Part shown: positions 3,731 through 41,668 of the stretch, in pieces
Layout: every line of letters starts with the position of its first letter
How positions within the stretch are numbered: position 1 is the stretch's first letter
Origin: Clostridiales bacterium
Lineage (GTDB): Bacteria; Bacillota; Clostridia; Christensenellales; Aristaeellaceae
DNA length: 64,000 bases
NCBI GenBank assembly: GCA_012517815.1
Contig: JAAYUF010000051.1
Span: forward strand, 1-64,000
Reading direction: 5' to 3'
Program-made: the position numbers and the translations under genes
Notes under the pieces: model-generated
Seen by the model: the letters and a program-made list of their open reading frames with translations, nothing else
Database searches by the model: none
Told to the model about the DNA's origin: nothing

Positions 3731-5176
3731 TTGAAGCCAGATAAGCACTTCCCCGTTAAGGCCAGACTCTTCGAGCACCAATACCAAGCGGCAGACGTCG
3801 CACTGGCACACTTGGCGGATGGCGGCGGTTACGCTCTCCTCATGCAAATGGGGACAGGTAAGAGTTTAACCTCGATTGCCATCGTTGGCAAGCTATGGAA
3901 GGAGCGCCGCATCCGCAAAGCGCTCATCGTCGCCCCGCTCTCCATCCTGGGCGTCTGGGAAGAGGAGTTCCAGAAGTTTGCAGCCTTCGGCTACGAATTA
4001 ACGCTGCTCACTGGCTCGCTGACGCACAAGGCCGAAATCATCCGCGGCGTGTCCAGCCCTTCCCTGCAAGTGTTAGTGGTGAACTACGAATCCGCGTGGC
4101 GGCTGGAAACCGAGCTGCTCCGCTGGCACCCCGACTGCATCATCGCGGACGAATGCCACAAGATTAAGACGCCGGGCGCCCGCGCCAGCAAGACCATGCA
4201 CAAACTGGGCGCAGCCGCCAAGTACCGCCTCGCGCTCACCGGCACCGTGATCACCAACAAACCCATCGACGTGTTCAGCCAGTACAAATTCGCGGATCCC
4301 AGTGTTTTTGGCGGTAGCTTCTACCTTTTCCGTAATAGGTACTTCGACATGACCGGCTATGGCAAATACACACCTGTCATGAAGCAAGCCATGGAAACCG
4401 AGTTCACCCAGCGCCTGCACAGCATCGCCTTCCGCGCAACCAAGGCCGAGTGCCTTGATCTTCCCGACACGACCGACGTGATCCAGCGTATCGATTTGGA
4501 GTCTGCGGCGCTGCGCGTCTACCGCCAGCTTGTGAAGGACAGTTACACCGAACTACAGGAAGGCGCCGTGACCGTCACAAACGTACTGACCCGCCTGCTG
4601 CGCCTGTCCCAGCTTACCGGCGGCTTTCTGGGCAGCGACGATGACCCCAGACCGGAACAGGTATCCTCCGCCAAACTGGACGCGCTGGAAGAAATCCTTG
4701 AAAGCGCGGATGGGCAGAAACTGGTGATCATTGCCCGTTTTGTCCCGGAAATCCATGCGATCGAGCAGATGCTCACACGCAAAGGAATCCGCTACGCTAT
4801 CATCCACGGCAGTGTGACCGACCGGGCGGCGCAGGTGACCGCGTTCCAGACCGACCCCACGGTACAGGTGTTCATCGGGCAGATCGCCACAGCGGGGCTG
4901 GGCATCACGCTGACCGCCGCTTCCACCATGGTGTTCTACTCGCTGGATTACTCCATGAGCAACTATGAACAGACCAAAGCCCGCATCCACCGCGTCGGGC
5001 AGCGTTACCCCTGCACCTATATCCATCTAGTGGCCAGGGGCACGGTAGACGAGCAGGTGCTCAAAGCCCTCAAGGAAAAGGCCGATCTGGCCAAAACGCT
5101 GGTGGATGATTGCCGGGCAGGCCGTAACCCCTTCGACCCTTACAGGAGAATGTATGCAGCAGGAAAAGATGTTTGA
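3731..5176 (+). CDS. SNF2-family DEAD/DEAH helicase (phage)
   Basis: LLMQMGTGKSLTSIAI (Walker A), IIADECHKIK (DExH), LALTGTVITNKPIDVFSQ, ARIHRVGQ motif VI. Confidence 0.92.
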   Translation: MKPDKHFPVKARLFEHQYQAADVALAHLADGGGYALLMQMGTGKSLTSIAIVGKLWKERRIRKALIVAPLSILGVWEEEFQKFAAFGYELTLLTGSLTHKAEIIRGVSSPSLQVLVVNYESAWRLETELLRWHPDCIIADECHKIKTPGARASKTMHKLGAAAKYRLALTGTVITNKPIDVFSQYKFADPSVFGGSFYLFRNRYFDMTGYGKYTPVMKQAMETEFTQRLHSIAFRATKAECLDLPDTTDVIQRIDLESAALRVYRQLVKDSYTELQEGAVTVTNVLTRLLRLSQLTGGFLGSDDDPRPEQVSSAKLDALEEILESADGQKLVIIARFVPEIHAIEQMLTRKGIRYAIIHGSVTDRAAQVTAFQTDPTVQVFIGQIATAGLGITLTAASTMVFYSLDYSMSNYEQTKARIHRVGQRYPCTYIHLVARGTVDEQVLKALKEKADLAKTLVDDCRAGRNPFDPYRRMYAAGKDV

Positions 5177-5570
5177 ACTGGCAGATCGGCTCAAAGCGTT
5201 ACGCGATCAGAAGGATGCGCTGGAAGCCGAGCTCAAGCAGGTCAACATGGATATCGACAACGTCGACTGGCATCTGGCCAACCACATGGCGGAAACGGAG
5301 ACCCAGAATTTCACCCGCGCTGGCGTCATGTTCTGCCTGACCACCAAGACCCGTGCCAGCGCGCTGGCCGGGCAGAAGGAATCCCTGTATGACGCGCTAC
5401 GGGCGCAGGGCTATGGCGATCTGGTCTACGAGACCGTCAACGCCAATAGTCTCTCAGCCTTCGTCAAGGAGCAGATCGAGGCCAATGACGATGCGCTACC
5501 CAGCTGGCTCAACGGGCTGATCAGCGTATTTGACAAAACGACCGTTGGCGTGCGTAAAGCGCCCAAATAA
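5155..5570 (+). CDS. Conserved phage hypothetical protein (coiled coil N-terminus)
   Basis: MQQEKMFELADRLKALRDQKDALEAELKQVN; in the early replication operon. Confidence 0.6.
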
Positions 5571-5590
5571 CGAAAAGTGAGGATGCCACA

Positions 5591-6328
5591 ATGAACGAAA
5601 CCGAAATGATCACAACCACTGGATACACAGCCCTCCGGGATTTCAACCTTGCCGACGCCATGCGCGATGAACTGAACGGCATGGACATCACCTTTGACCG
5701 CGTCACTGTCCCAGCCGCCGGAGGCACTACCTTCGAGCTCCCCGGCGCGCTGCCTGGTGAAACCGATGCGGTGAAAGAGTTTACCGGGGTGATCCTCTAC
5801 CACCACCCGCTGTTCTCGTTCTACCGCGAACGCTTCACCGGCGGCAATAACGCCCCCGACTGCGGCAGCTACGACGGCGAGACCGGCGTTGGCAATCCAG
5901 GCGGCGACTGCGCATCCTGCCCGCTCAACCAATTCGGCTCCGGTGAAAACGGCGGCAAAGCCTGCAAGAACAAGCGCCGCATCTACATCCTGCGCGAGGG
6001 CGAAGTCATCCCACTTCTGCTGACCCTGCCCACCGGTTCCATGAAGGAGTTCGCGGTGTACATCAAGCGACTGCTCACCAAGGGAAAGAAGTCCCAAAGC
6101 GTGGTCACGCGCTTTTCCCTCAAGAAGGTCAGCAACGCCGGCGGCATTGCCTACTCTCAGGCGCAGTTCGCCGTGGCGCGGATGCTCACAGCAGAGGAAA
6201 CCCCGTGTATCGCGGCCATGGCGGAACATGTGAAGCAGCGTTCCACCCACGTGGGCTACGAAGCGGAGACTGTTACTGGCGAAATCATCGACCCCGAAAC
6301 CGGCGAGGTCACCCAGCCGCTGCAGTAA
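5591..6328 (+). CDS. Conserved phage hypothetical protein of the replication module
   Basis: 245-aa ORF with a CASCPLNQFGSG...KACKNKRR Cys motif; syntenic with DNA metabolism genes. Confidence 0.65.
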   Translation: MNETEMITTTGYTALRDFNLADAMRDELNGMDITFDRVTVPAAGGTTFELPGALPGETDAVKEFTGVILYHHPLFSFYRERFTGGNNAPDCGSYDGETGVGNPGGDCASCPLNQFGSGENGGKACKNKRRIYILREGEVIPLLLTLPTGSMKEFAVYIKRLLTKGKKSQSVVTRFSLKKVSNAGGIAYSQAQFAVARMLTAEETPCIAAMAEHVKQRSTHVGYEAETVTGEIIDPETGEVTQPLQ

Positions 6329-6337
6329 AGCCACCCC

Positions 6338-6363
6338 GGCGGAGGGTGGCAACGCCCTCCGCC
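6338..6363. repeat. 26-bp hairpin, copy 1 (identical to 7117-7142)
   Basis: GGCGGAGGGTGGCAACGCCCTCCGCC; 9-bp perfect stem, 8-nt loop. Confidence 0.9.
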
Positions 6364-6383
6364 CCATTTGAAAGGAGAATTTC

Positions 6384-7109
6384 ATGGACAACATACAAGT
6401 TTTTACCAATCGGCACTTTGGTCGGGTTCGTGTAGTGACACGCGATGGCGAACCCTGGTTTATCGCTTCAGATGTTTGCCGGGCACTGGAAGTTGGAAAT
6501 AATAGGCAAGCCTTGTCCCGCCTGGACGAGGATGAAAAGGGCGTCATTTTAAATGACACCCCTGGCGGAAAGCAAAGCATGGCGGTCGTTAGCGAGCCTG
6601 GCCTGTACGCGCTGGTTCTGGGCAGCCGTAAACCCGAAGCGCAATCCTTCCGTCGCTGGATCACCCACGAGGTGCTGCCTGCGATCCGCCAAGAAGGCGC
6701 GTACATGACGCCCGAACGCCTGCACAAGGTGCTGGAGGATCCAGACACGCTCATCGCGCTGGCTCAGCGGCTCAAACTGTTGCAGGAGAAAAATCGCACA
6801 TTGGCCGCCAAGAATGTCGAGTTGCTTCCCAAGGCGGACTACTTCGATCGGCTGGTCGATCATGAAGTCAACCTGACCCTGCGCGAAACAGCCAAGGAAT
6901 TGGGCGTGAAGGAGCGCAGCTTTATCGATTACCTCATCGAGCACGGCTATCTGTACCGGGATAAGAAGCAGCACCTCATGCCCTACGCCGACCATGTGGA
7001 TACCCTGTTCGCGGTGAAAGAGTGCATCAACGAGCGCACGGGCTGGGGCGGCACACAGACCTTGGTCACCCCGCAGGGGCGCGACTGTTTCCGCCGGCAG
7101 CTCTGCTGA
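6384..7109 (+). CDS. Phage antirepressor (BRO-N + KilAC-like)
   Basis: MDNIQVFTNRHFGRVRVVTRDGEPWFIASDVCRALEVGNNRQALSRLDEDEKG... is a BRO-N domain; C-terminus KilAC-like. Confidence 0.9.
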   Translation: MDNIQVFTNRHFGRVRVVTRDGEPWFIASDVCRALEVGNNRQALSRLDEDEKGVILNDTPGGKQSMAVVSEPGLYALVLGSRKPEAQSFRRWITHEVLPAIRQEGAYMTPERLHKVLEDPDTLIALAQRLKLLQEKNRTLAAKNVELLPKADYFDRLVDHEVNLTLRETAKELGVKERSFIDYLIEHGYLYRDKKQHLMPYADHVDTLFAVKECINERTGWGGTQTLVTPQGRDCFRRQLC

Positions 7110-7116
7110 ACCATAC

Positions 7117-7142
7117 GGCGGAGGGTGGCAACGCCCTCCGCC
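7117..7142. repeat. 26-bp hairpin, copy 2
   Basis: Identical GGCGGAGGGTGGCAACGCCCTCCGCC directly after the antirepressor stop codon. Confidence 0.9.
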
Positions 7143-7161
7143 TCCCGAAAGGAGGCATACC

Positions 7162-9093
7162 ATGGGCTACCAATGCGTCTCGGAGCTAAACAACATTCAG
7201 GATTACCTGCAGGGCGCCACGCTGGTCGCGTTCGACTTTGAAACCGCGCCACTGCTTCAGTACCGCTCCGACCCCAAGGCATCGCTCGATCCCCACCGCG
7301 CCTGCATCGTAGGCATCAGCCTGTCGGTAGAGGCTGGAAGCGCCATCTACATCCCTTTGCAGCATTTCGACGGGAGCAATGCAGACCCGGCAATCGTCAT
7401 CCCTTACCTGCGCGAGGCGCTGTGGATGAACTCCAGCGTCACCAAGGTGGCGCACAACCTGGCTTTCGAAGCGCAATTCCTGTACGCGCTGGGTATCGTT
7501 CTGCAGCCGCCGTGCTACGACACCATCGCCGCCGCGCAACTGACGCTCAAGAGCGACTATGAATTTCGGGGGCTCAGTGACTCTGGTCTGAAAACCCTTG
7601 TGCCAAAGCTGCTGCATGTTGATCTCCCCAGCTTTGGGGAGGTTACCGAAGGAAGATTCTTCGATGAACTGCTCTCTCGCGACCCGGAAACCATCCGCTA
7701 CGCCTGCGCGGACAGCGACTTTGCCTTGCAGCTATACCACCGCTTCAACGCCTGGTTTGAAACCTTCATCCCAGCGCACCGCACCCTTGTTGAGCAGATA
7801 GAATCTCCCACAGCCGTATTCTGCGGCCTTATGAAGTATAACGGGCTGCTCATGGATCGTCCTCGTATGATCTGCAAACAGGTGGAGTGCATGGATCATC
7901 TGGTTGAACTGCGGGAGCAGATCCGCAACCTGATCGGCGACGTGGATATCGGCGCGAACGCTGGTACGAAGGCGTTCAAGGACTATCTGTTCAAAGACCT
8001 GGGCTTGCCCATTCTGAAAACAACGGAGAAGAATGCCGATGCTGCAGATGACCAGGTCATGGTGATGCTAGCGCAGTGGTGCGCCGATCACAGGCCGGAG
8101 CTGGTTCCGCTGTTTGAACTGGTGCAGGATTACCGCAAGTGGTCAAAGCTGAAGAATACCTATGTCGACGGCTACCTCAAACACATTAGCGACGCCACGG
8201 GTCGCATCCACCCCGATCTATTGCCGTTGGCCACCGCGACGGGACGCTTTGCATCGCGTAACGCCAACATGCAGAATTGCCCCCGCAAGACTCACGATCC
8301 CGTGGGCATCCGTTCCTTCATCGTGGCGCCGGAAGGGCATGTGCTTGTAAGCTGCGATTTTTCGCAGATTGAACTTCGCGTCGGCGCGTTCTACTGCAGA
8401 GACGCCAGGATGCTCGAAACCTATCGCACCGGCGGAGACATCCATGCGCAGACCACCAGCGTCATTTTTTCCATTCCGTATGCGCAGGCGGTGGATAAAA
8501 ATGCGCCAGATTACAAAGAGCGTCGTACCATCGCCAAGAACGTGAATTTCGGCGTGTTCTACGGGCTGTTCCCAACGGGGTTGCAACGGACGCTGCGGTT
8601 CAAGGCGGGGCTAAACCCTTCGCTTACCGAGTGTGAGAGCATCATCGCCAACCTGAAAGCGGGCTATCCCAAGCTGGCCAAGTGGCAGGAGCAGGAAAAG
8701 CGCACCGCAGCCTCCACCCAGTACACCCAGACTCACCTTGGGCGGAGGCGGTATCTGCCCGGCATCCGCTCGCAGGATTGGGGCCGTAAAAGCTTTGCAG
8801 AACGCCGCGCGCTCAACACGCCCATTCAAGGCACGGCGGCGGATATCCTCAAACTGGCGCTGGGGCGATTGCTGGCGGGATTGCCGGAACGCCCCTGGCT
8901 CAAACCCCTGCTCCAAATCCACGATGAGCTGGTGTTTGAGCTGCCCGCCTATCGGCTTGACGAGGCAGTGGCTTTCATTCGCGCCTGTATGGAGCAGCAA
9001 CCCTTTTCCGGGTTTGATGTGCCGATCGTGGCGGAGGCTAGTTATGGCACCGACTTCGGGCACATGGCCGAGATCGAGAGGAGCGACGTATGA
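7162..9093 (+). CDS. Phage DNA polymerase I (family A, 3'-5' exonuclease + polymerase)
   Basis: VAFDFETAPL exonuclease motif; SCDFSQIELRVGAFYC; KNVNFGVFYGL; LQIHDELVFEL. Confidence 0.95.
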   Translation: MGYQCVSELNNIQDYLQGATLVAFDFETAPLLQYRSDPKASLDPHRACIVGISLSVEAGSAIYIPLQHFDGSNADPAIVIPYLREALWMNSSVTKVAHNLAFEAQFLYALGIVLQPPCYDTIAAAQLTLKSDYEFRGLSDSGLKTLVPKLLHVDLPSFGEVTEGRFFDELLSRDPETIRYACADSDFALQLYHRFNAWFETFIPAHRTLVEQIESPTAVFCGLMKYNGLLMDRPRMICKQVECMDHLVELREQIRNLIGDVDIGANAGTKAFKDYLFKDLGLPILKTTEKNADAADDQVMVMLAQWCADHRPELVPLFELVQDYRKWSKLKNTYVDGYLKHISDATGRIHPDLLPLATATGRFASRNANMQNCPRKTHDPVGIRSFIVAPEGHVLVSCDFSQIELRVGAFYCRDARMLETYRTGGDIHAQTTSVIFSIPYAQAVDKNAPDYKERRTIAKNVNFGVFYGLFPTGLQRTLRFKAGLNPSLTECESIIANLKAGYPKLAKWQEQEKRTAASTQYTQTHLGRRRYLPGIRSQDWGRKSFAERRALNTPIQGTAADILKLALGRLLAGLPERPWLKPLLQIHDELVFELPAYRLDEAVAFIRACMEQQPFSGFDVPIVAEASYGTDFGHMAEIERSDV

Positions 9094-9560
9094 AACAGAA
9101 CCCCTTACCGCTGGCAGATCGCCTGCTGGCAGACCCCGATTACGCCATCCGGGTATTTCGCGAACTCAAGCAAGAACGTTCCAAACGCGCTCATCTGGAA
9201 AAGCAAACCGCTGAACAGCGCCGCTGGGCGGCAATGATACGTCCCAAATTGGACTTCTTCGACCGGGTGCTGCGCAGGGGTGAGCTGCTCCCCACAGCGG
9301 TCATCGCTGCCGATTACGGCATGACGGAGCGCGATTTCACGGATATGCTCCGGGCGCTCGGCATCTGCTCGGATACAGGATACGGTCTGCGCCTGATGCC
9401 CCGGTATGCCCAGCAGGGCTACATGGCGTGGGAAACCATCCTGTATGGCAACCATCATAAGGATCAACGGCTGCTCTGGACGCAGCGTGGGCGATATTTC
9501 CTCTACCAGATGCTCAAGGATCACTACAATTTGCTGCCCCAAAAGGAGGCTATACCATGA
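9090..9560 (+). CDS. KilAC-like phage antirepressor C-terminal domain protein
   Basis: Similar to the C-terminus of the 6384 ORF: PKLDFFDRVL...MTERDFTDMLRALG...LWTQRGRYFLYQML. Confidence 0.65.
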   Translation: MKQNPLPLADRLLADPDYAIRVFRELKQERSKRAHLEKQTAEQRRWAAMIRPKLDFFDRVLRRGELLPTAVIAADYGMTERDFTDMLRALGICSDTGYGLRLMPRYAQQGYMAWETILYGNHHKDQRLLWTQRGRYFLYQMLKDHYNLLPQKEAIP

Positions 9561-9979
9561 TGTATCGCAATCACGAAGGCTATCCTGACCCTACTGCCGG
9601 CGCGGCGCTGGCCAGAATTGAGCAGGAGGAGTACCGGCAACGCTGTCCCTTCATGCCGCTGGTGTATATCTGCTCGCCGTATCAGGGAGATGTGGAACAC
9701 AACACACAGGCTGCGCAGCGCTACTCACGCTTTGCTTTGGAGAACAAGCGCCTGCCCATCGCGCCGCACCTGCTGTTCCCGCAGTTTATGGGCGCAGAAA
9801 CGGACGCTACGCGCGAGCTTGCCCTGCACATGGGCATGATCCTGCTCACCAAGTGCCATGAGCTGTGGTACTTCGGAGATCGGATCAGCGAGGGCATGAA
9901 ACTGGAGCTCAACCGGGCAAGGTGGCGCGGTATCCCCGTACGGCATTTCAACGAGAATTGTGAGGAGGTAGCCATTTGA
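9557..9979 (+). CDS. DUF4406/DUF7768-like (nucleoside 2-deoxyribosyltransferase-like) protein
   Basis: PLVYICSPYQGDVEHNTQAAQRYSRFALENKRLPIAPHLLFPQF...ELWYFGDRISEGMKLEL. Confidence 0.75.
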   Translation: MMYRNHEGYPDPTAGAALARIEQEEYRQRCPFMPLVYICSPYQGDVEHNTQAAQRYSRFALENKRLPIAPHLLFPQFMGAETDATRELALHMGMILLTKCHELWYFGDRISEGMKLELNRARWRGIPVRHFNENCEEVAI

Positions 9980-12474
9980 AAGCGCTCAACATCCCCTTAA
10001 CCGAATTCCTCCGCCCATTCTTTGAGCCTTCCGACAAGATCTGTCTGCGCATCTTCGACGACCGCAAGGCGGGCAGCATTTTCAAGGGCATGAAGGTGGA
10101 AACGTCGCTAGCCAAAGTTGACGCCATGGCGGAGGATCTGAAAAAGCATAACGCCCAGAATCGTGGCATCTACTTCGTAGTCAACGCTAGCGGCCATGAA
10201 GACAGCGAAATCCAGCGCGTCAACGCGCAGTTCATGGAATGCGACGAGCTGTCCCTGGAGGAGCAATGGGCCAAGATCAACGCTTTCCCGCTGGAACCGT
10301 CCATCGTGGTGAAAACCCGCAAGTCCCTGCACACCTATTGGCTGATGAAACATGCGGATGTCGCTTCCTTCCGCCGCGTACAGCAGGCGTTGGCTGCGTG
10401 CTTTGGCGGGGATAAAACCTGTGTTAACGAAAGCCGTGTGCTGCGTCTACCAGGCTTCTATCACTGCAAGCAGGAGCCGGTTATGGTGGAGTGCGTAAAA
10501 TTCAACCCTGAACTGCGCTACACGCAGGCCGAACTGGAGAAGCACCTCCCTAGGTTGGAGGAGGACACGCCCCGTAACCTTGTGAGCAACGTACCGAAGG
10601 GAACACAGCAGGGATTGACCTCCGTGCGCAAACGCTGTGATTTCATCCAGCACTGTGCGCAGAATGCCGCACAACTGTCTGAACATGACTGGTATGCCAT
10701 GATTACCAATCTGGCGGTTTTCGACGGCGGCGAGCAGGCAATCCATGCGCTGTCGGCTGAGTATCCCGGTTACCGCGCCTCGGAAACGCAGGAGAAAATC
10801 AACCACTTCATAGCCTCCGGCACCAAGCCCATGACCTGCAAAACCATTGCGGAGAAGGGTTTCCGTTGCCCCAGAATGCTGGATGGAAGTTGCGTGTGCA
10901 AGGCGCCGGCATCGATGTGTTATCTGCCGATGGATCTGGACGCATTGCGCGATAGACTGGCGGATCAGCCGGTCACTGGGCGCACCGTCGAGGATGCGAT
11001 CACCGCGCAGCATTTTGTACGCGAATACCTCTTCAATGTGGATCCTGTCGTAGCGGGCGCCTTCCTGCAATACGAGCTTCGCCAGCGGTTGGGCCTGAAG
11101 GCCATGGACATCAAGCCGCTGGACGCGATGCAAAAGGAACTGTTCAAGACATGGAAAAGCGCGAAAGAATCCCAACTCGACCGAAGCGACCTTGAGCTTC
11201 CCATTTGGTACGAGGTGACGGAGCGCGGCGGGCTACGCTTTAAGCCAGGCATCCTTGCCAACCATCTGGTACAGGACGTAGCGGCGTTCTATTCCACCGG
11301 CTCGTTCTACACCTACGACGGCGGCGTATACAAAATGCGGGATGACCTTTGGGCAGCCAACAAAGTACGCGAGTACATGAACGCGGGCACGGCGACGCAG
11401 AACGCGATCATGGACTGCACCTGGCAGTGGCGCATCCAAGTGCTCAAGCACGTGACGGAGATTAACGCCAACCCGTTCGTCATCAACCTGAAAAACGGCC
11501 TGTACAACGTGCTGGAGGAAACCCTGAAACCGCATTCGCCGGACTTCTGCTCCACCGTGCAGATCCAGGCCGCCTATCAGCCGGAAGCGCAATGCCCGCA
11601 GTTCATGGCTTTTCTGGAGAGCACGCTTGGAGCGCCTGAAATTGGACTGATGCAGGAGATCCTCGGATACTTCCTCGTGCCGCTCAACAAGGCGCAGAAG
11701 GCGTTCATCCTGGTCGGGGCACCGAATGCTGGCAAATCCACGATTCTATCTGTGGTTCAGGAAATCCTGCTAGGTCAGGACAACGTTTCCAACGTCGCCT
11801 GGCAGAATCTGAGCGACCGCTTCAACAAGGCGGAGCTGTTTGGCAAGCTGGCCAACATCTTTGCCGACCTGCCCAGCAAGGCGATCGAGGACAACGGTTT
11901 CTTCAAGTCCATGACCGGCGAGGATTACATCAGCGCGGAGCGTAAAAACAAGGACCCGTTCAACTTCCGACCTTACGCGCGGTTCCTGTTCTCATGCAAC
12001 GAGATCCCCCGCAACTACGGCGACCGCAGCGACGGTTTCTATCGCAGGCTGTGCATCATCCGCTTCAAAAAGCCTGTGCCCAAAGACCAGCGTGACCCGA
12101 ATCTGCTGGACAAGCTGGCGACCGAGCGCGACGGCATCCTGATGTGGGCGATCCAAGGCTTACGGCGTCTGATGGCGCAAAACTACCAGTTCACCGAAAC
12201 CGAGGCGACCGCGCAAGAGTTGAAACAATACCGCATTGAGTCCAACAGCGCGCTGCTGTTCATGGAGGAGTGCTGCGTTGTGGAGCCCAAGGCGGTGTCC
12301 GTGCGGGAGCAGGTGTTCGAGCGTTACCATGACTACTGCGTCAAAAACGGCTTGCGCCCGATGTCTCAAACCAGCTTCAACAAAGACGTTGAGAGCAATT
12401 ATCCAAGCGTCAGTCGCGCGACGGACAACGTTGCCAACCGACGCATCTGGCGGGGTGTGCGGCTGCATGACTAA
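9976..12474 (+). CDS. Phage/plasmid primase-helicase, P4 family C-terminal (D5-like)
   Basis: FILVGAPNAGKSTILSVVQEILLG Walker A; RPYARFLFSCNEIPRNYGDRSDGFYRRLCIIRF; 832 aa. Confidence 0.93.
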   Translation: MKALNIPLTEFLRPFFEPSDKICLRIFDDRKAGSIFKGMKVETSLAKVDAMAEDLKKHNAQNRGIYFVVNASGHEDSEIQRVNAQFMECDELSLEEQWAKINAFPLEPSIVVKTRKSLHTYWLMKHADVASFRRVQQALAACFGGDKTCVNESRVLRLPGFYHCKQEPVMVECVKFNPELRYTQAELEKHLPRLEEDTPRNLVSNVPKGTQQGLTSVRKRCDFIQHCAQNAAQLSEHDWYAMITNLAVFDGGEQAIHALSAEYPGYRASETQEKINHFIASGTKPMTCKTIAEKGFRCPRMLDGSCVCKAPASMCYLPMDLDALRDRLADQPVTGRTVEDAITAQHFVREYLFNVDPVVAGAFLQYELRQRLGLKAMDIKPLDAMQKELFKTWKSAKESQLDRSDLELPIWYEVTERGGLRFKPGILANHLVQDVAAFYSTGSFYTYDGGVYKMRDDLWAANKVREYMNAGTATQNAIMDCTWQWRIQVLKHVTEINANPFVINLKNGLYNVLEETLKPHSPDFCSTVQIQAAYQPEAQCPQFMAFLESTLGAPEIGLMQEILGYFLVPLNKAQKAFILVGAPNAGKSTILSVVQEILLGQDNVSNVAWQNLSDRFNKAELFGKLANIFADLPSKAIEDNGFFKSMTGEDYISAERKNKDPFNFRPYARFLFSCNEIPRNYGDRSDGFYRRLCIIRFKKPVPKDQRDPNLLDKLATERDGILMWAIQGLRRLMAQNYQFTETEATAQELKQYRIESNSALLFMEECCVVEPKAVSVREQVFERYHDYCVKNGLRPMSQTSFNKDVESNYPSVSRATDNVANRRIWRGVRLHD

Positions 12475-18633: not shown

Positions 18634-21270
18634 GTGGGCATAATCCGAAAGCTGAAAAAGTATAAGCCCACCGCCTTCATGGCCAAGACTTCACAGTACA
18701 GTCAACCCGCTGCCGATTACGCCGTATCCTTCATCGAGGCTCTTGCTCACACGAAAGGCAGCTGGGCGGGCAAGCCCTTTGAGCTGATCGACTGGCAGGA
18801 GCAGATCATCCGCGATGTGTTCGGCATCCTGAAATCCAACGGATACCGGCAATTCAACACGGCCTATGTCGAAATCCCGAAAAAGATGGGCAAACAAGTG
18901 GCGCTGGATACGCCGATACCCACGCCGGATGGTTTTTCGACAATGGGCGCCATCGCCGTGGGCGACATCGTTTTCGACGAGCGTGGGAAACCCTGCCATG
19001 TCGTTGCCAAGAGCGCGGTGGACTATGCCGAACGCGCATACCGAATCACCTTCAAAGACGGTGAGGTCATTGAGGCGGGTGAAAACCATCAGTGGTTCGG
19101 TGAGTATACGCGCGGTAAAAACAAACCCTGTGTTCTAACAACAGGTGAGTTAGCACGCCTGCCTCGTGATAGAAACTGCTATCGCTTTCGGATCCCCTTG
19201 GCGGGAGCGCTTGAGACGCCTGATGCAGACTTGCCGGTGGAGCCTTATCTATACGGCTACTGGCTCGGCAACGGAAACGCGGTCAAGCCGGAGATCACCG
19301 TAAAGACAGGTGATGTCGCTGCTGTTTTCAGGCACATCCTGCCTTTCCATGCAGTCGGTAGCGTACGGCAAAACACGGGCGACAGCCTTGTTTTCCGGAT
19401 ACCGGCGCTTCGTTGTGCTTTACTTGACAGCTTTCGTGACAAGGTAATCCCCGTCGCTTATCTACGCGCCTCCAAGGAGCAACGGCTACGTTTGCTGAAA
19501 GGCTTAATGGATTCAGATGGCGCAATCAGCAATCGAAAAGGCCAAGCGATCTATTCATCCACCGAGCGCGGACTTGCTAAAAGTGTCAGCGAATTGCTGT
19601 GGAGCCTTGGTATCAAGAATGCGATCGAAACAGCGGTCTCCACACAAAGGGTCGACTGGAGTATGCCAAGTGCGGAATGTGGACGGATAGCAACCGGTGA
19701 AACGCTGTACTATGTCAAGTTTACAGCGTTCAAGGATACGCCGGTTTCGGGGATGCACAGAAAGAAAAACCAGTCGGTGACACGCAATCCGCGAACGCGG
19801 AGCCATTACCGCTACATTGACACAATTGAGCCGATCGAAAACCGGGGCATGCAATGCATCCAGGTCAGCAGCGCGTCCCACCGATACTTGGTAGGCCGTT
19901 CGTGTTTACAGACGCACAATTCCGAACTGGCCGCCGCCATCGCCTTGCTGCTGACCTGTGGCGACGGCGAGGAGCGAGCCGAGGTCTACGGCTGCGCAGC
20001 CGATCGGCAGCAGGCGTCTATTGTGTTCGAGGTGGCTGCCGACATGGTGCGCATGTGCCCGGCGCTCTCCAAACGGGTCAAAATCCTTGCCTCCACCAAG
20101 CGGATCATCTATCTGCCCACAAACAGTTTCTATCAGGTGCTCAGCGCTGAGGCGTATTCTAAACATGGTTTTAACATCCATGGCGTGGTGTTTGACGAGC
20201 TGCATACCCAGCCCAACCGCAAGCTCTTTGACGTGATGACCAAAGGCTCCGGCGACGCGCGTACCCAGCCGCTCTACTTCCTGATCACCACGGCGGGAAC
20301 CGATACACAAAGCATCTGCTATGAGACCCACCAGAAAGCGCTGGATATCCTTGAAGGCCGAAAGCGTGACCCCACCTTCTACCCAGTTATCTACGGCGCC
20401 AAGGAAGAGGACGATTGGACGGATCCCAAGGTTTGGAAGAAAGCCAATCCATCGCTTGGCATCACGGTGTCGATTGACAAGGTGAAGGATGCCTGTGAGA
20501 GCGCCAAGCAGAATCCCGCCGAGGAAAACAGTTTCCGGCAGCTGCGCCTAAACCAGTGGGTCAAGCAGGCCGTGCGCTGGATGCCGATGGCCAAGTGGGA
20601 TGCCTGCTCGTTTACGGTTGATCTGGAAAGGCTTTCCGGCCGCGTCTGTTACGGCGGGCTTGACCTGTCCAGCACCACCGACGTGACAGCCTTTGTGCTG
20701 GTGTTCCCGCCGGAGGATGCGGACGGCAAGTACGAGGTTCTGCCCTTCTTCTGGATTCCAGAGGAAAATATCGATTTACGCGTGCGGCGTGATCATGTCC
20801 AATACGATCTCTGGGAAAAACAAGGGTTTCTGCTAACCACGGAAGGAAACGTTGTGCATTATGGTTTCATCGAAAAGTTCATTGAGGAACTAAGCACGCG
20901 CTTCAACATCCGGGAAATCGCCTTTGACCGCTGGGGCGCTGTGCAGATGGTGCAAAACCTTGAGGGATTGGGCTTCACGGTCGTTCCCTTCGGGCAAGGT
21001 TTCAAAGATATGTCGCCGCCCACCAAGGAACTGATGAAACTGACGCTGGAACAGAAACTCGCCCATGGCGGGCATCCGGTGCTCCGGTGGATGATGGACA
21101 ATATATACGTTCGCACTGACCCGGCGGGAAACATCAAGCCGGACAAGGAGAAATCTACGGAGAAGATCGACGGCGCGGTGGCGACCATCATGGCGCTGGA
21201 TCGGGCGATACGTTGCGGCGGTGGCAATAGCGAGAGCGTTTATAACGCGCGTGGCCTGTTGGTTCTATAA
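18634..21270 (+). CDS. Terminase large subunit precursor containing an intein
   Basis: Exteins SQPAADYAVSFIEALAHTKGSWAGKPFELIDWQEQIIRDVFG...YVEIPKKMGK + SELAAAIALLLTCGDGEERAEVYGCAADRQQA are TerL; 342 aa interrupts GK/S of Walker A. Confidence 0.95.
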   Translation: MGIIRKLKKYKPTAFMAKTSQYSQPAADYAVSFIEALAHTKGSWAGKPFELIDWQEQIIRDVFGILKSNGYRQFNTAYVEIPKKMGKQVALDTPIPTPDGFSTMGAIAVGDIVFDERGKPCHVVAKSAVDYAERAYRITFKDGEVIEAGENHQWFGEYTRGKNKPCVLTTGELARLPRDRNCYRFRIPLAGALETPDADLPVEPYLYGYWLGNGNAVKPEITVKTGDVAAVFRHILPFHAVGSVRQNTGDSLVFRIPALRCALLDSFRDKVIPVAYLRASKEQRLRLLKGLMDSDGAISNRKGQAIYSSTERGLAKSVSELLWSLGIKNAIETAVSTQRVDWSMPSAECGRIATGETLYYVKFTAFKDTPVSGMHRKKNQSVTRNPRTRSHYRYIDTIEPIENRGMQCIQVSSASHRYLVGRSCLQTHNSELAAAIALLLTCGDGEERAEVYGCAADRQQASIVFEVAADMVRMCPALSKRVKILASTKRIIYLPTNSFYQVLSAEAYSKHGFNIHGVVFDELHTQPNRKLFDVMTKGSGDARTQPLYFLITTAGTDTQSICYETHQKALDILEGRKRDPTFYPVIYGAKEEDDWTDPKVWKKANPSLGITVSIDKVKDACESAKQNPAEENSFRQLRLNQWVKQAVRWMPMAKWDACSFTVDLERLSGRVCYGGLDLSSTTDVTAFVLVFPPEDADGKYEVLPFFWIPEENIDLRVRRDHVQYDLWEKQGFLLTTEGNVVHYGFIEKFIEELSTRFNIREIAFDRWGAVQMVQNLEGLGFTVVPFGQGFKDMSPPTKELMKLTLEQKLAHGGHPVLRWMMDNIYVRTDPAGNIKPDKEKSTEKIDGAVATIMALDRAIRCGGGNSESVYNARGLLVL
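18895..19920 (+). other. In-frame intein (342 aa) with LAGLIDADG homing endonuclease domain; class 3 signature
   Basis: Starts QVALDTPIPTPDGFSTMGAIAVGDIVFDERGKPC (block A-like), ENHQW (block B), YLYGYWLGNG and LLKGLMDSDG (LAGLIDADG motifs), MQCIQVSSASHRYLVG (block F), CLQTHN|S (block G and +1 Ser). Confidence 0.93.
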
Positions 21271-21312
21271 CATTGTAAAGCGTGTTACTCCGTGCTATAC
21301 TTGAAAACAACA

Positions 21313-21340
21313 GGCCGTTTCAGTCAATAACTGATCGGCC
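21313..21340. other. Inverted repeat upstream of the diguanylate cyclase gene
   Basis: GGCCGTTTCAGT-CAATA-ACTGATCGGCC. Confidence 0.5.
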
Positions 21341-21457
21341 CCTAGCAATCGCAGCGATACGCATTGATGATGTTCAAGAGCACATATTCGCAATTCGAGT
21401 CGATGGGCTCACACGGCGCAATGTGTTATTTCGATTCATAAGCCTAAGGGGGCGTTA

Positions 21458-22357
21458 TTGTTGGAGGCAAACGAACAGTATAAGGAAATCTTTGAGAACT
21501 TGAATGATGGTGTCTATTATGTTGATAGAGACCGCAGAATCACCTTTTGGAATAAGGGTGCCGAACGGATTTCCGGCTTTTCCAGCGATGAAGTGATCAA
21601 TACGCATTGCTATGATAATGTCTTAATGCATACAAACGACGAAGGAACACAACTCTGCATGAGCGGTTGTCCGTTGCTAAATAGTATCCAAACCAACCAT
21701 ATTAACGTCGCCTCCGTATATTTGCTACACAAAGCAGGCTATCGCGTGCCAGTGTCAGTACGAACTGTACCAATAGTAGAAAACGGCGAGGTATTCGGCG
21801 CGGTTGAGATATTTCAAGTGCAACACGAGCGGATGGAAAGTCTTTATAATATGCAGGAGCTAAAAACGCTAGCACTAACCGACCAGTTGACCGGCTTGCC
21901 CAACCGAAGATATACCGAAACGTTTTTGGCTTCAAGGATCAGCGAATATAAAGCGCTCGGGATAAATTTTGGCGTTCTTTTTATGGATATTGATCACTTT
22001 AAACTATTCAACGATCAGTATGGTCACGGGGTAGGCGACGACGTATTGCGAATCTTAGCAAAAACCTTTACCAGCAATCTTCGTAATAGTGACTTCATTG
22101 GCAGATGGGGCGGCGAGGAATTTATTGGGATCTGTGTTTGCCCCGATGAAGATAGTTTGAGGCAAGTTGCAGAAAAGATCAGAATTCTGGCAGAAAAAAC
22201 ATCGATTCCTTATGCAGATCAATCCTTAAGCGTAAGCATTTCGATCGGAGCGACACTATACCAAACGGACGAAACGGCTGAACAAGTTGTACAGCGAGCG
22301 GATAATTTGCTGTATATGAGCAAAACCAGCGGAAGAAACTGTGTTACCTTGGGTTAA
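21458..22357 (+). CDS. PAS-GGDEF diguanylate cyclase
   Basis: PAS: NLNDGVYYVDRDRRITFWNKGAERISGFSSDEVINTHC...LCMSGCPL; GGDEF: LTDQLTGLPNRRYTE...FMDIDHFKLFNDQYGHGVGDDVLR...GRWGGEEFIGI. TTG start. Confidence 0.93.
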   Translation: MLEANEQYKEIFENLNDGVYYVDRDRRITFWNKGAERISGFSSDEVINTHCYDNVLMHTNDEGTQLCMSGCPLLNSIQTNHINVASVYLLHKAGYRVPVSVRTVPIVENGEVFGAVEIFQVQHERMESLYNMQELKTLALTDQLTGLPNRRYTETFLASRISEYKALGINFGVLFMDIDHFKLFNDQYGHGVGDDVLRILAKTFTSNLRNSDFIGRWGGEEFIGICVCPDEDSLRQVAEKIRILAEKTSIPYADQSLSVSISIGATLYQTDETAEQVVQRADNLLYMSKTSGRNCVTLG

Positions 22358-22410
22358 TGCAATCTTTCGTGTGCGATGCGAACATGAAGGCTTGTATGTT
22401 TCAATCCTCA

Positions 22411-22436
22411 AGAGCAATCGAAAGGTTGCTCTTTTT
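22411..22436 (+). terminator. Rho-independent terminator after the GGDEF gene
   Basis: AGAGCAA-TCGAAAGG-TTGCTCT-TTTTAT, perfect 7-bp stem plus T tract. Confidence 0.85.
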
Positions 22437-22462
22437 ATATGCCATACACCGGAGGTGTGTCT

Positions 22463-23755
22463 GTGAAAACTCCCTTTCGTAATTTCTTTCACTCCCGCGA
22501 TAAGCCCAAAAACAGCCTGGGCAGCGCGTTCTCCTTCCTGTTTGGCGGCACGACCTCCGGCAAAACGGTCAACGAGTATACCGCGCTGCAAACCACGGCG
22601 GTGTATGCCTGTGTCCGAATCCTTGCTGAAACAGTCGCGGGGCTTCCGCTCCATGTGTATCAATACCGCTTGGACGGCAGCAAAGAGCGGTTCCCACAGC
22701 ACCCGCTTTACAATCTGCTGCATAACGAACCAAATCCCGAGATGACGTCATTTGTGTTCAGGGAAACACTCATGAGTCATCTTTTGCTTTGGGGCAACGC
22801 CTATGCGCAGATCGTCCGAAACGGGCGTGGTCAACCTGTCGCGCTGTACCCACTGCTGCCCAACAAGATGGACGTGAGCCGCGCGCCAAATGGCGAGCTT
22901 CGCTACACTTACTATCGGGATGTGGATGAGAGCGGACTGAGACCCAAGGGCGGCTATGTCACGCTGCGTAAGGACGAGGTGCTTCATATCCCCGGTTTGG
23001 GGTTTAACGGCTTGATCGGTTACAGCCCCATTGCCATGGCCAAGAATGCGATCGGTATGGCGCTGGCGACCGAAGAATATGGCGCGAGCTTTTTTGCCAA
23101 CGGCGCCAACCCCGGCGGTGTGCTGGAGCATCCGGGGGTCATTAAGGATGTGCAACGGGTCAAAGACAGCTGGAACGCGGCATATCAGGGGAGCGGAAAT
23201 GCCCATCGTGTGGCGGTGCTGGAAGAGGGCATGAAGTTTCAGGACATCGGCATTCCCCCAGAACAAGCGCAGTTTTTGGAGACGCGCAAGTTCCAGATCA
23301 ATGAAATCGCCCGTATCTTTCGCGTACCGCCGCACATGGTCGGCGATCTGGAGAAGAGCAGTTTTTCAAATATCGAGCAGCAGTCGCTGGAATTTGTCAA
23401 ATTCACCATTGATCCTTGGGTGGTAAGGTGGGAACAGTCGCTCAGCCAAGCGCTACTGCTACCCTCCGAAAAAAGCGACATCTTCATTCGCTTCAACCTG
23501 GACGGCTTACTTCGAGGCGATTACGCTAGCCGCATGACCGGGTACGCCACCGGCAGGCAGAACGGTTGGTTATCGGCCAACGATATCCGCGAGTTGGAAG
23601 ACATGAACCGTATTCCGGCATCCGAAGGTGGCGACCTTTTCCTCGTGAACGGGAGTATGACCAAATTAGTCCAGGCCGGCGCGTTCGCAGGCAAGGAAAG
23701 CCCTGTAAAGCAAGCAACACAACGAAAACACAAGGAGGAGACCAATGAAAAGTAG
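22463..23755 (+). CDS. Phage portal protein (HK97 family)
   Basis: TAVYACVRILAETVAGLPLHVYQ...HPLYNLLHNEPNPEMTSFVFRETLMSHLLLWGNAYAQI. Confidence 0.95.
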   Translation: MKTPFRNFFHSRDKPKNSLGSAFSFLFGGTTSGKTVNEYTALQTTAVYACVRILAETVAGLPLHVYQYRLDGSKERFPQHPLYNLLHNEPNPEMTSFVFRETLMSHLLLWGNAYAQIVRNGRGQPVALYPLLPNKMDVSRAPNGELRYTYYRDVDESGLRPKGGYVTLRKDEVLHIPGLGFNGLIGYSPIAMAKNAIGMALATEEYGASFFANGANPGGVLEHPGVIKDVQRVKDSWNAAYQGSGNAHRVAVLEEGMKFQDIGIPPEQAQFLETRKFQINEIARIFRVPPHMVGDLEKSSFSNIEQQSLEFVKFTIDPWVVRWEQSLSQALLLPSEKSDIFIRFNLDGLLRGDYASRMTGYATGRQNGWLSANDIRELEDMNRIPASEGGDLFLVNGSMTKLVQAGAFAGKESPVKQATQRKHKEETNEK

Positions 23756-28349: not shown

Positions 28350-29351
28350 TTAGTACTTCTTAGGGAACTTCTCCTTGCCATACTGCCACAAGTACTGGTC
28401 TATCTCTTTCAGAGTGAAGTTTTCAAGCGAGTAGAATGCTTGCAATTTGAGGAGCGTCTTCTTAAATACAGATATGTTCCGCAAGTCTTCCCTGTGGAAA
28501 TTTGCAAAATTGTCAACGTCCCTCAGGTAGACCAGTAACTCTTCTACAAAACTATCATATATGGGATAAACCTCTGGCTGATGGTGGCTACAGTATTTGG
28601 TAGCGAACGAGTAAAAGCGCAATTCTTTACCATTTTTTGTATTCCTCACGCCATGTCCTGAGGCAATATCCATAACCAAGGATTCATCGCCGCGCTTGAG
28701 CCGATCGTCAATATTGAGAGAGACAATATGCCGTGCAACCGCAAAAACATTATATATGTTGGTGCTGTAAAACGCGTTGAGTGCTGCTACCTTCAGCAGA
28801 ACATCGTCGAGGCTGTTATTTTCTGGGCTGAATTGCTTGAACAGTTTACTTAGGGCGCTTTCTTGCGCCTTGTAATTCTCAAGCGTGTTCCATTTCTCAA
28901 TGTAGCATTCTACAGCATCACGGCTTGGGTGTTCAAAATCAGACAGAGTGCGCGTTCTGTGAACAGTACGCAGAATTCGTGTTGTATAGGACCCAATGTT
29001 GGGATTCGTGTTGATGCTTTCATTCGTTTGCCTGACCACCAGCTTTCCCTCATGCTCAGCGATTTCCCATACGCCATGCTTCTTCGGGTCATAAAGGGTT
29101 ACAACCCCTCTGCTGACTGAATACAGGAAATCATATTTATCATTTGCGATACGCGGTCTATTGTTTTCAGGCATACTGACACGACTTTGGCGGTTTACGC
29201 AGCATGCAAGTGCCTGCGCATTGATTGTGCCTTCGTTTACAGTGCCATAATGATCAAAAATGTATTTCCTGATTTCAGCCATTGATATAGCATCGGTTCC
29301 AATGCTGGTTACTGCTTCTTGTATCATTTTCCAAACGGCTATATTAGACAT
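28350..29351 (-). CDS. Accessory (moron) protein with N-terminal DUF7669-like/winged-helix region; candidate phage-encoded defence factor
   Basis: 333-aa ORF antisense to the late genes: MSNIAVWKMIQEAVTSIGTDAISMAEIRKYIFDHYGTVNEGTINAQALACCVNRQSR...; C-terminal RFYSFATKYCSHHQPEVYPIYDSFVEELL. Confidence 0.8.
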   Translation of the reverse strand: MSNIAVWKMIQEAVTSIGTDAISMAEIRKYIFDHYGTVNEGTINAQALACCVNRQSRVSMPENNRPRIANDKYDFLYSVSRGVVTLYDPKKHGVWEIAEHEGKLVVRQTNESINTNPNIGSYTTRILRTVHRTRTLSDFEHPSRDAVECYIEKWNTLENYKAQESALSKLFKQFSPENNSLDDVLLKVAALNAFYSTNIYNVFAVARHIVSLNIDDRLKRGDESLVMDIASGHGVRNTKNGKELRFYSFATKYCSHHQPEVYPIYDSFVEELLVYLRDVDNFANFHREDLRNISVFKKTLLKLQAFYSLENFTLKEIDQYLWQYGKEKFPKKY

Positions 29352-38745: not shown

Positions 38746-38760
38746 TGGGAGGTGGGCATT

Positions 38761-40074
38761 ATGGGCAGAAAGATAACAAAACTGGCGGTTTCGGAGCCTA
38801 TCCCGACTCGGGAAAGGGTGGCTGCCTACGCACGGGTATCCTGTGGTAAGGATGAAATGCTGCACTCACTCGCGGCACAGGTCAGTTATTACAAGGAATT
38901 CATCCAAAGCCAGTCAGGATGGGACTTTGCAGGCGTATATGCCGACGAGGCTGTGACGGGAACGAAGGACAATCGGGTTGAGTTCGTTCGGATGCTTGCG
39001 GATTGCCAGTCGGGCAAGATCGATAGGGTGATCACAAAATCCATCTCCCGATTCGCACGGAATACGGTTACCTTACTGGAAACCGTCCGTGGCCTTGGAG
39101 AACTGGGCATCGATGTTTTCTTTGAGGAGCAGAACCTCCATACGGCCAGCGCGGATGGTGAGCTTCTCCTAACTATTCTGGCCAGTTATGCACAGGAGGA
39201 GAGCCGCTCAGTCAGTGAAAACTGCAAGTGGCGTATTCGTAAGGATTATCAGGAAGGCAAGCTAACCGGCGGCGTTCACATGTACGGCTACGATTACAGG
39301 GAAGGGACGCTGGTGGTTAATCCGCAGGAGGCCGAGGTTGTCCGGATGATCTTTTCGGATTACCTTTCCGGTATGGGCAGAAACGCCATTATGCGCAAGT
39401 TGATACGGTTGGGCATCCCCACCAAGCTCGGCGGGCGTTGGGCAGAAAACACCGTTGCCAGCATTCTAAACAATGAAAAGGTGGTCGGTGATCTCTGCTT
39501 GCAGAAGGGTTTTATATCCGACCACCTTACCAAACAGAAGCGAGTCAATCGTGGCGAGCTTCCCATGTATTATGTGGAAGGCGCTCATGAAGCCATTATC
39601 GACCGGGCAACCTTCGATGCCGTTCAGGCGGAAGTGGCTCGGAGAGCGCATGAGTGCAAGCCTGCCAGCAAAAAGCCTCGCAGCGAATTTTGCGGCATGA
39701 TCCGCTGTGGTCGCTGCGGCGCGAACTTCATCCAGAAAATCAACGCGATCGGTACGAAGTACGCCAAAGCGAACTGGGCGTGCGCTACCTACACCACGCA
39801 CGGCAAGGATTACTGCGCGGCAAAGCGTATCCCTGAGGATATCCTCCGACAGAAATGCGCGGAAGCCTTGGGAAGCAACGCTTACAACGCTGCTGACTTC
39901 ATGGCAAGGGTAGCAGCCATAACGATTCCAGAAGATGGGGTTTTGGTGTTCACCTTCAAAGATGGCACGCAAGTAACCATTCCATGGGAAAAGCACTCCC
40001 GTCGGGACAGTTGGACAGATGAGATGAAAAGCAAGGCGAAGGTCGCGGCAAAGAGGAGGCTTGGCAATGGCTAA
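38761..40074 (+). CDS. Large serine recombinase 1
   Basis: VAAYARVSCGKDEMLHSLAAQVSYY; SKSISRFARNT-type motif; Recombinase and zinc-ribbon domains (CGRCGANF). Confidence 0.95.
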   Translation: MGRKITKLAVSEPIPTRERVAAYARVSCGKDEMLHSLAAQVSYYKEFIQSQSGWDFAGVYADEAVTGTKDNRVEFVRMLADCQSGKIDRVITKSISRFARNTVTLLETVRGLGELGIDVFFEEQNLHTASADGELLLTILASYAQEESRSVSENCKWRIRKDYQEGKLTGGVHMYGYDYREGTLVVNPQEAEVVRMIFSDYLSGMGRNAIMRKLIRLGIPTKLGGRWAENTVASILNNEKVVGDLCLQKGFISDHLTKQKRVNRGELPMYYVEGAHEAIIDRATFDAVQAEVARRAHECKPASKKPRSEFCGMIRCGRCGANFIQKINAIGTKYAKANWACATYTTHGKDYCAAKRIPEDILRQKCAEALGSNAYNAADFMARVAAITIPEDGVLVFTFKDGTQVTIPWEKHSRRDSWTDEMKSKAKVAAKRRLGNG

Positions 40075-41668
40075 CGTTCGGGTTATCCCCGCTCTGGCGC
40101 CGATCGTGTCCGCTCAGGTAAAGGATACGACGGTCAAGCGGCGGGTGGCGGCTTACGCGCGAGTTTCGACCGATAGCGACGAGCAGCAGACCAGTTATGA
40201 AGCGCAGGTGGATTATTATACCAAGCTGATCCACTCCCGGCCGGACTGGTCTATGGTCGATGTATTTACGGACGAGGGAATCTCGGCAGTCAACACCAAG
40301 CGGCGTGAGGGTTTCAAGCGGATGGTCGCGGACGCGCTCTCCGGCAAGATTGACCTGATTGTCACCAAATCGGTCAGCCGTTTTGCCCGCAACACGGTCG
40401 ACAGCCTCACCACGGTTCGCAAGCTGAAGGATAACGGCGTTGAAGTCTGGTTCGAAAAGGAAAACATCTACACGCTGGACAGCAAAGGCGAACTGTTGAT
40501 CACCATCATGTCGTCGCTAGCCCAGGAAGAAAGCCGTTCCATTTCCGAAAACGTCACCTGGGGTGCGCGTAAACGGATGGCCGACGGCAAGATTTCCTTG
40601 CCCTACGGTCAATTCCTGGGCTATGAAAAGGGCGAGGATGGCTTGCCGAGTATCGTTGAGAGCGAAGCCGTGATTGTGCGCCGCATTTTTCGCCAATACA
40701 TGGAGGGCAAAACCCCCTCGATGATCGGCAAGCTGCTGGAAAAGGACGGGATTCCGGCTCCGGGCGGCGGTATGATATGGCAGTCCGCCACGGTTCGCTC
40801 CATACTCACCAACGAAAAGTACAAAGGGCATGCCCTGATGCAGAAAACCTACTGCTCAAACTTCCTGACCAAGAAGATGGTCAAAAATACCGGACAGGTT
40901 CAGCAGTATTACGTCGAGGACAGCCATCCAGCGATCGTGTCTCCCGATGAGTTTGACATGGTACAGGCTGAAATCGAGCGCCGCAAGAGTCTGGGCAGAC
41001 CGGGTCGATGCAACAGCATATTCGCTGGCAAGATCGTCTGCGGCGATTGCGGCGGCCTTTACGGCAGAAAGGTTTGGGGCAGTTATAAAGAGGATAAAAA
41101 CTACCGCAAAGCGGTATACCAGTGCAACGATAAGTATAAAGGGAGCAAGCGATGCACAACCCCGCACGTGACCGAGGAGCAGATCACGGCTGGGTTTCTG
41201 GTTGCGTTTAACAAACTGATGGAAAACCGCTCCCGTCTGATTGAGGATTGCCGCTTGGTGCAGGCTACGCTTTGTGACACTAGCGCCATCGACGCAGAGA
41301 TATCCACCCTGCGGCGTGATCTGGATGTGGTTTCGGCACTGGCCCGAAAAGAAATCGCGCAAACCGCAAAAGCAGCAGGCGACTCGGATTGCAGCAATAG
41401 CCACTTGGAACGTTTCCGACAGGTCAATGAACAGATTACGGGGTTGGAAGCCGAAAAGGTAAAACGACTTGCCAAAGCGAAGGCGCTTGATCGGTTTGTT
41501 CGAGAAGTGGAGGGCAAGCCGCTGATCCTGGAAGCCTTTGATGAAAAGCTGTGGCTTGCGGTCGTGGATCAGGTGACAGTTGGTGTGGATGGAGAGATGG
41601 TGTTTCGGTTTAGAAATGGTGCGGATCTGGCATGTCAATATTCGCTATCAGGACTAGTTATTATATAG
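40067..41668 (+). CDS. Large serine recombinase 2
   Basis: VAAYARVSTDSDEQQTSYEAQVDYY; VTKSVSRFARNTVDSL; AGKIVCGDCGGLYGRKVW; C-terminal coiled coil. Confidence 0.95.
   Translation: MANVRVIPALAPIVSAQVKDTTVKRRVAAYARVSTDSDEQQTSYEAQVDYYTKLIHSRPDWSMVDVFTDEGISAVNTKRREGFKRMVADALSGKIDLIVTKSVSRFARNTVDSLTTVRKLKDNGVEVWFEKENIYTLDSKGELLITIMSSLAQEESRSISENVTWGARKRMADGKISLPYGQFLGYEKGEDGLPSIVESEAVIVRRIFRQYMEGKTPSMIGKLLEKDGIPAPGGGMIWQSATVRSILTNEKYKGHALMQKTYCSNFLTKKMVKNTGQVQQYYVEDSHPAIVSPDEFDMVQAEIERRKSLGRPGRCNSIFAGKIVCGDCGGLYGRKVWGSYKEDKNYRKAVYQCNDKYKGSKRCTTPHVTEEQITAGFLVAFNKLMENRSRLIEDCRLVQATLCDTSAIDAEISTLRRDLDVVSALARKEIAQTAKAAGDSDCSNSHLERFRQVNEQITGLEAEKVKRLAKAKALDRFVREVEGKPLILEAFDEKLWLAVVDQVTVGVDGEMVFRFRNGADLACQYSLSGLVII

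Follow-up and report, generated by a model that had tools for sequence, protein, structure and literature searches.

What is a gene for a diguanylate cyclase doing between the large terminase gene (terL) and the portal gene of a prophage? The window analysed here, a 64,000-nucleotide stretch of DNA from an uncultured Clostridia lineage, contains a prophage in which every module is represented (Table 1), and the cyclase lies inside its packaging module. The product of such enzymes, c-di-GMP, is the bacterial "settle down" signal. An earlier note, made from the letters of the sequence, had taken the gene and its flanking signals for a self-contained cassette, and had proposed that it serves either lysogenic conversion of the host's c-di-GMP signalling, through motility or biofilm, or the sensing of the phage's own state.

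Pfam searches of the gene and of both its flanks confirmed that an intact PAS and GGEEF gene lies between TerL and portal. The open reading frame at 21458-22357 matched PAS (PF00989, E 8.8e-12) and GGDEF (PF00990, E 2.7e-43), and the protein was also recognised as a diguanylate cyclase domain by NCBIfam (TIGR00254, E 7e-45). Translation was assigned to the second TTG because the sister copies, described below, lack the first one. In the AlphaFold model (pLDDT 90, pTM 0.61) the fold matches the PAS-GGDEF and LOV-GGDEF structures 5xgb and 8c05. Aligned with 34 relatives, the protein has the active-site loop GGEEF and the metal Asp motif MDIDHFK, and the feedback (inhibitory) I-site RxxD is intact upstream of the GGEEF loop (RNSD, RNSDFIGRWGGEEF); judged from these motifs, the catalytic and inhibitory sites of the phage cyclase are intact.

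Table 1. Positions of the prophage modules and of the cassette elements in the window
Feature	Position	Strand	Remarks
ImmA-like peptidase	1604		prophage
Helicase, DNA polymerase, primase	3731-12474		prophage
Small terminase	14208		prophage
Two DNA methyltransferases			prophage
terL, large terminase subunit with intein	18634-21270	+	Pfam TerL_nuclease, TerL_ATPase (PF20441/PF03354); left border of the slot
Promoter-like site TTGTAA-17-TATACT	21273-21301	+	extended -10 (TGc); just 3' of the terL stop; consensus scan
Predicted 5' leader	21302-21460	+	about 150 nt; 75% DNA identity with the sister, less conserved than the gene
Inverted repeat GGCCG-TTTCAGT-CAATA-ACTGA-TCGGCC	21313-21340	+	hairpin
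PAS-GGDEF diguanylate cyclase	21461-22357	+	298 aa from the conserved TTG (299 aa from TTG 21458)
Intrinsic terminator AAGAGCAATC-GAAA-GGTTGCTCTT, T-rich tail	22410-22433	+	ATGCC and the portal ribosome-binding site come next
Portal gene, GTG start	22463-23755	+	Pfam Phage_portal PF04860, E 1e-132; right border of the slot
ClpP-like protease, then capsid and tail genes	after portal		capsid and tail read from gene order and the sister prophage
Endolysin	37111		prophage
Serine recombinases	38752, 40061 (38752-41668)		two adjacent genes at the prophage end

The cassette is AT-richer than its flanks, as had been claimed (GC about 0.44 against 0.53-0.57); the prophage as a whole has a GC content of 0.55 and the host one of about 0.61. 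Its own terminator was confirmed as a stem just before portal. The start of portal was placed by a GGAGG site and by the sister sequence, and since the gene begins at a GTG behind this site, the terminator falls within the untranslated gap. Upstream lies a promoter-like site that the earlier note does not mention; its TG-N-TATACT is kept in all three cassette copies. Such sites number 3 in the region, against 2.3 +/- 1.6 in shuffles, a count that alone is not above chance; across the slots described below there are 21 against 10.9 in shuffles, about twofold.

The inverted repeat upstream of the cyclase is present, as the earlier note had it, and folds better than all 200 shuffles (z -4.6). In each of the two other copies some of its pairs are broken, so that the pairing is conserved in part. 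The repeat would lie near the 5' end of the predicted transcript and may act as an RNA hairpin or as an operator. Consensus folding of the three leaders was suggestive, with three sequences only to draw on. A riboswitch or other known RNA in the leader was considered and rejected, the leader having no match in Rfam.

Other features of the prophage are recorded here in their own right. TerL holds an intein of about 342 aa (window 18895-19920, TerL residues 88-429, LAGLIDADG_3), which starts with what reads as Gln and ends in THN ahead of Ser; it has homologues in loci L066 (89%) and L131 (68%), and the site is uninterrupted in 72 related TerL matches. A second probable cargo slot lies before the tape-measure gene, with an AT-rich DUF7669 gene in the window (28350-29351, minus strand) and a ParE-type toxin in the sister prophage (L061 10023-10334, minus strand). 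The sister also carries a group II intron-like reverse-transcriptase gene between its ClpP-like and capsid genes (L061 3910-5706).

The terL-portal junction in related phages

The reading of the locus had started from the premise that TerL is normally followed directly by portal. Scanning IMG/VR with the C-terminal part of the window's TerL gave 80 contigs at 82-95% identity, and the premise proved right for about half of these relatives and wrong for the rest: the gap between terL stop and portal start was 56 nt or shorter in 33 of the 72 measurable loci and longer than 150 nt in the other 39. By the same measure, gaps above 150 nt were found at 1 of 62 portal-ClpP junctions and at 2 of 57 ClpP-capsid junctions. 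The slot gap at L117 is doubtful (its terL is interrupted by an early stop, and what counts there as "cargo" is terL sequence), which leaves the comparison unaffected. Prophages that lack the cassette, with which a comparison had been proposed, exist in the host family itself: one, an 84% relative by TerL, has an 11-nt gap, and others have gaps of 17 and 18 nt, a toxin-antitoxin-like pair in one case, or HNH genes.

The slot contents vary between phages and mostly have a higher AT content than the contig around them. Among them Pfam recognised Fic/Doc, ParE with a partner, RelE, MNT/HepT, GNAT, a CAAX-type protease, a PAPS-reductase-like protein, HNH, DUF3800, a transporter with a MarR regulator, a metallophosphoesterase and a host-surface lipoprotein (Lipoprotein_Ltp); part of the cargo is metabolic-looking or without assigned identity. 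In five loci (L079, L067, L111, L084 and L143) the slot gap, 200-510 nt long, holds no clear protein gene. These gaps are possibly small RNAs or remnants, and no tRNA genes were found in the slot loci without an ORF.

Many slot gaps end in the same way before the portal ribosome-binding site, with GCATCT-loop-AGGTGC-TTTTTT-CATGCCCATTTT. Terminators were present in 14 of the 35 slot gaps, where shuffled sequence would lead one to expect 0.38, and a search of 2.9 million viral contigs in IMG/VR found the exact string AGGTGCTTTTTTCATGCCCATTTT in 39 stretches. Portal stands directly behind this terminator box, or a near form of it, in 41 of 42 loci, the exception being L098, which has no match there. 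In all 32 loci whose contig includes terL, the gap ahead of the box measures 446-2034 nt, and in 31 of these its largest ORF has the same strand as the phage genes. The genes found before the box encode DarT, DarG-like, GmrSD-like, SoFic, nucleotidyltransferase, ParE/RelB and HEPN proteins. The window's own terminator (GAGCAATC-GAAA-GGTTGCTC-TTTTTATATGCCAT) has the layout of the shared one and a different stem. These arrangements make the terL-portal junction a slot for variable cargo, a result new here; we found no earlier description of a terL-portal slot with a shared terminator in the literature searched, which covers subscription journals poorly.

Morons, as known from phages of the HK97 and lambda type, are extra genes that sit between two phage genes and have a promoter and a terminator of their own. 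Several marks of a moron are found here: the cyclase gene lies between phage genes that are adjacent in relatives, and it has its own base composition and its own terminator. Because the junction is a variable cargo slot with a terminator box, the cyclase looks like a typical phage moron, and we think it probable that it is one, namely an independently transcribed cargo gene in the variable terL-portal slot of a temperate phage of this uncultured Clostridia lineage. Most likely it is an extra gene that alters the behaviour of the infected bacterium and has no part in building the virus.

The same slot data bear on the idea that the cyclase is a lytic-cycle factor, co-transcribed late with terL and changing c-di-GMP during infection, for example for lysis or in neighbouring cells. 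Such a role would suit a gene on the strand of the late genes, inside the packaging module. We nevertheless rate it unlikely: the promoter-like site and the terminator directly before portal are such as independently transcribed cargo would have, and the identified slot cargo consists largely of toxin-antitoxin and defence genes, which are active in lysogens.

Copies, selection and family of the cyclase

The cassette is known from three copies, all of them within a single genus. Besides the window's own, one is carried at the identical location by a sister prophage from another assembly of the genus (LVAQ01000012.1, "Clostridiales bacterium Firm_11", our G003:C36; also IMGVR_UViG_2751185645_000005), whose cyclase protein is 95% identical. 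Both junctions of its cassette lie inside one contig, the noncoding flanks match, and its species differs from that of the window. A decayed prophage remnant in the genome from which the window comes holds the third copy (G000:C109:6208-7101), which is 86% identical; there it follows a short C-terminal fragment of TerL (65% identical) and precedes another TerL fragment (50%). The upstream reading frames contain stops and the cyclase is intact; outside the TerL and cyclase stretches, none of the other window proteins of at least 100 aa has a match at the remnant, and the surroundings, read from their ORFs, are bacterial transport and regulatory genes. The order of the fragments in the remnant (L060 5744-7459), with the C-terminal one before the cyclase and the ATPase one after it, is reversed, which suggests two prophage remnants or a rearrangement. 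An element of about 100-140 nt is repeated in the host genome (window 63353-63496; L060 1839-2161 and 10028-10127), with three copies within contig C109 alone.

By the Nei-Gojobori method, dN/dS of the cyclase was 0.023/0.264 between window and sister, 0.075/0.732 between window and remnant (ratio about 0.10) and 0.075/0.924 between sister and remnant. These low values imply that purifying selection has maintained the cyclase, the remnant copy included. At the DNA level, window and sister are 93% identical in the cyclase, 90% in terL, 81% in portal and 75% and 73% in the noncoding flanks, and dS is lower for the cyclase than for terL (0.56) and portal (1.15). This may hint, within the limits that saturation and codon bias set on dS, that the last exchange of the cassette came after the divergence of its neighbours. 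The remnant copy has a GC content of 0.50 in a host region of 0.63-0.64, a rise of the kind that amelioration would give.

Members of the cyclase family, 35 of which were compared, are spread over many phyla, among them Bacillota, Thermodesulfobacteriota, Spirochaetota and Acidobacteriota. The three phage copies group together in a clade of their own (100/100) beside Bacillota genes, the exact neighbour being weakly supported. On other viral contigs, the family was found only in the sister prophage and as three partial matches to the PAS region. Cellular PAS-GGDEF cyclases such as that of Anaeromicropila populeti (53% identical) share domain order, Cys/His set and length with the phage cyclase; unlike it, they are bacterial genes without TerL or portal nearby, and they lie outside the clade of the phage copies.

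That the gene is a captured host gene, neutral baggage recently hitch-hiking in the slot, is a reading to which this wide cellular distribution lends some weight, as do a base composition unlike that of phage and host and the restriction of the cassette to one genus. A dN/dS of about 0.08-0.10 maintained over dS values up to 0.9 in three copies speaks against it, as do the intact catalytic and inhibitory sites and a remnant copy that stayed intact while terL decayed, and we hold this reading to be improbable.

In the PAS domain the earlier note had picked out an HC...LC...C pattern as a possible metal or redox site. The cysteines are indeed conserved among the 35 relatives and the histidine H50 is not; the conserved set is C51 (34/35), C67, C71, H58 and H91. 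A metal or redox site thus stays plausible, with a ligand set other than the one first proposed, and it is to this that the conservation of the Cys/His set, as a sequence pattern, suggestively points. No paper on this set was found in the literature searched.

Sensing of the phage's state gained no support, given a PAS family that is widespread in bacterial phyla and whose members fetched from genome contigs, the sister prophage excepted, have neither this TerL nor this portal beside them. A prophage self-regulator, in which the PAS domain would sense redox or metal and c-di-GMP or the leader RNA would control induction, could draw on the conserved Cys/His set and on the long leader with its hairpins. 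It is nonetheless very improbable: no c-di-GMP riboswitch or other Rfam RNA was found in the window apart from one tRNA, relatives manage with quite different cargo or none, and in the remnant the gene persists with the remainder of the phage gone. Finally, an assembly chimera joining a chromosomal cyclase to the prophage, conceivable from two draft genomes and from composition shifts at both junctions, is ruled out because the second assembly, from another species, has the same cassette at the same place, with both junctions and matching noncoding flanks.

The host pathway and the likely output

The host genome contains 28 GGDEF matches, 6 EAL and 2 PilZ matches, and 2 c-di-GMP-I riboswitches. 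One of the riboswitches (L204, G000:C71:8342-8436) stands upstream of several small putative secreted proteins that resemble one another and of one Pro/Thr-rich protein; these secreted proteins gave no convincing Pfam family. Because this genome, 94% complete, shows no flagellin, flagellar motility is an unlikely output, and the suggestion of motility in the earlier note is not supported; the output is more likely to be at the surface or in aggregation than in swimming. One cyclase added to 27 other GGDEF matches may have little effect. PADLOC found no match between the cyclase and a known defence system, and it was rejected as a known defence protein.

The view of the locus as a self-contained accessory cassette is borne out by purifying selection and by the other lysogeny and competition genes that the slot holds in relatives. 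Because such a cassette sits in a slot of this kind, and with the rest of the pathway present in the host, lysogenic conversion of c-di-GMP signalling is the best reading. The cyclase would be transcribed in the lysogen from its own predicted promoter, with the terminator keeping its transcript out of the late portal operon. The protein would dimerise and make c-di-GMP, limited by the RxxD site, and the PAS domain would gate this synthesis, with a Cys3/His metal or redox site (C51, C67 and C71 with H58 and/or H91) as a possible basis. The c-di-GMP would then act through the host riboswitches, including the one upstream of the putative secreted surface protein cluster, and through the PilZ proteins. 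The lysogen would shift to a surface-modified, aggregated state, which would benefit the host and/or block superinfection, as with the defence and exclusion cargo of relatives.

By analogy, the blocking of superinfection would be a reasonable second role for the cyclase, because the identified slot cargo is largely made up of toxin-antitoxin, defence and exclusion genes. A bolder proposal goes further, taking the widespread slot, marked by its own conserved terminator, for an exchange site for phage-phage weapons, in which a redox- or metal-gated cyclase would here remodel the surface against superinfection and hosts would keep the gene after the phage has decayed. We regard this as possible and put it forward tentatively.

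Comparison with known systems

The view that phage-borne GGDEF enzymes are unusual holds as far as rarity goes, with a tblastn hit in 104 of 50,697 phage records and none at 60% identity or above, and needs qualifying by the published cases (PMC8471281, PMC7785012, PMC4287979). To this short list of phage-borne c-di-GMP enzymes the cyclase adds a conserved example under selection, in uncultured Clostridia. Of more use than the enzyme, itself a moron and a GGDEF cyclase, is the terL-portal slot together with the terminator shared there. The junction and the terminator sequence locate cargo genes in many phages, and since 11 of the 30 cargo proteins scanned singly have no Pfam family, the slot is a direct way to seek new defence, exclusion and conversion genes.

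Two of the published cases can be set beside the cyclase. Bordetella phage LK3 (Vojvodinavirus) carries a GGDEF gene, and its lysogens form more biofilm (PMC8471281). Like the phage studied here it is a temperate siphovirus with a diguanylate cyclase gene; its host, in contrast, is proteobacterial. DgcX of E. coli O104:H4 is a prophage-associated cyclase thought to spread with prophages (PMC4287979), and its A-site and I-site are intact, as in the phage cyclase. DgcX has a membrane sensor domain and is encoded beside lambdoid prophages, whereas our gene lies inside the structural module and encodes a protein with a cytoplasmic PAS domain. A link between cyclases and phage resistance has been reported in Vibrio, where loss of an island with three cyclases lowered that resistance (PMC10672970). 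This case and the biofilm of LK3 lysogens are parallels drawn from other enzymes than the phage cyclase studied here.

With the morons of HK97- and lambda-type phages the cassette shares a single gene of distinct base composition, a promoter-like site and a terminator of its own, and a junction at which relatives have nothing or another gene. It differs from them in that its product makes a second messenger, and in a terL-portal slot whose terminator is recognisable across many phages. The slot itself has its nearest parallel in the defence hotspots of P2-like phages and P4 satellites, where a fixed locus between conserved phage genes holds exchangeable accessory and defence genes (PMC9122126). 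The P2 hotspot lies beside cos, between the replication gene and portal, whereas the slot described here is bordered by terL and portal, belongs to phages related to one of Clostridia, and has a terminator in common ahead of portal.
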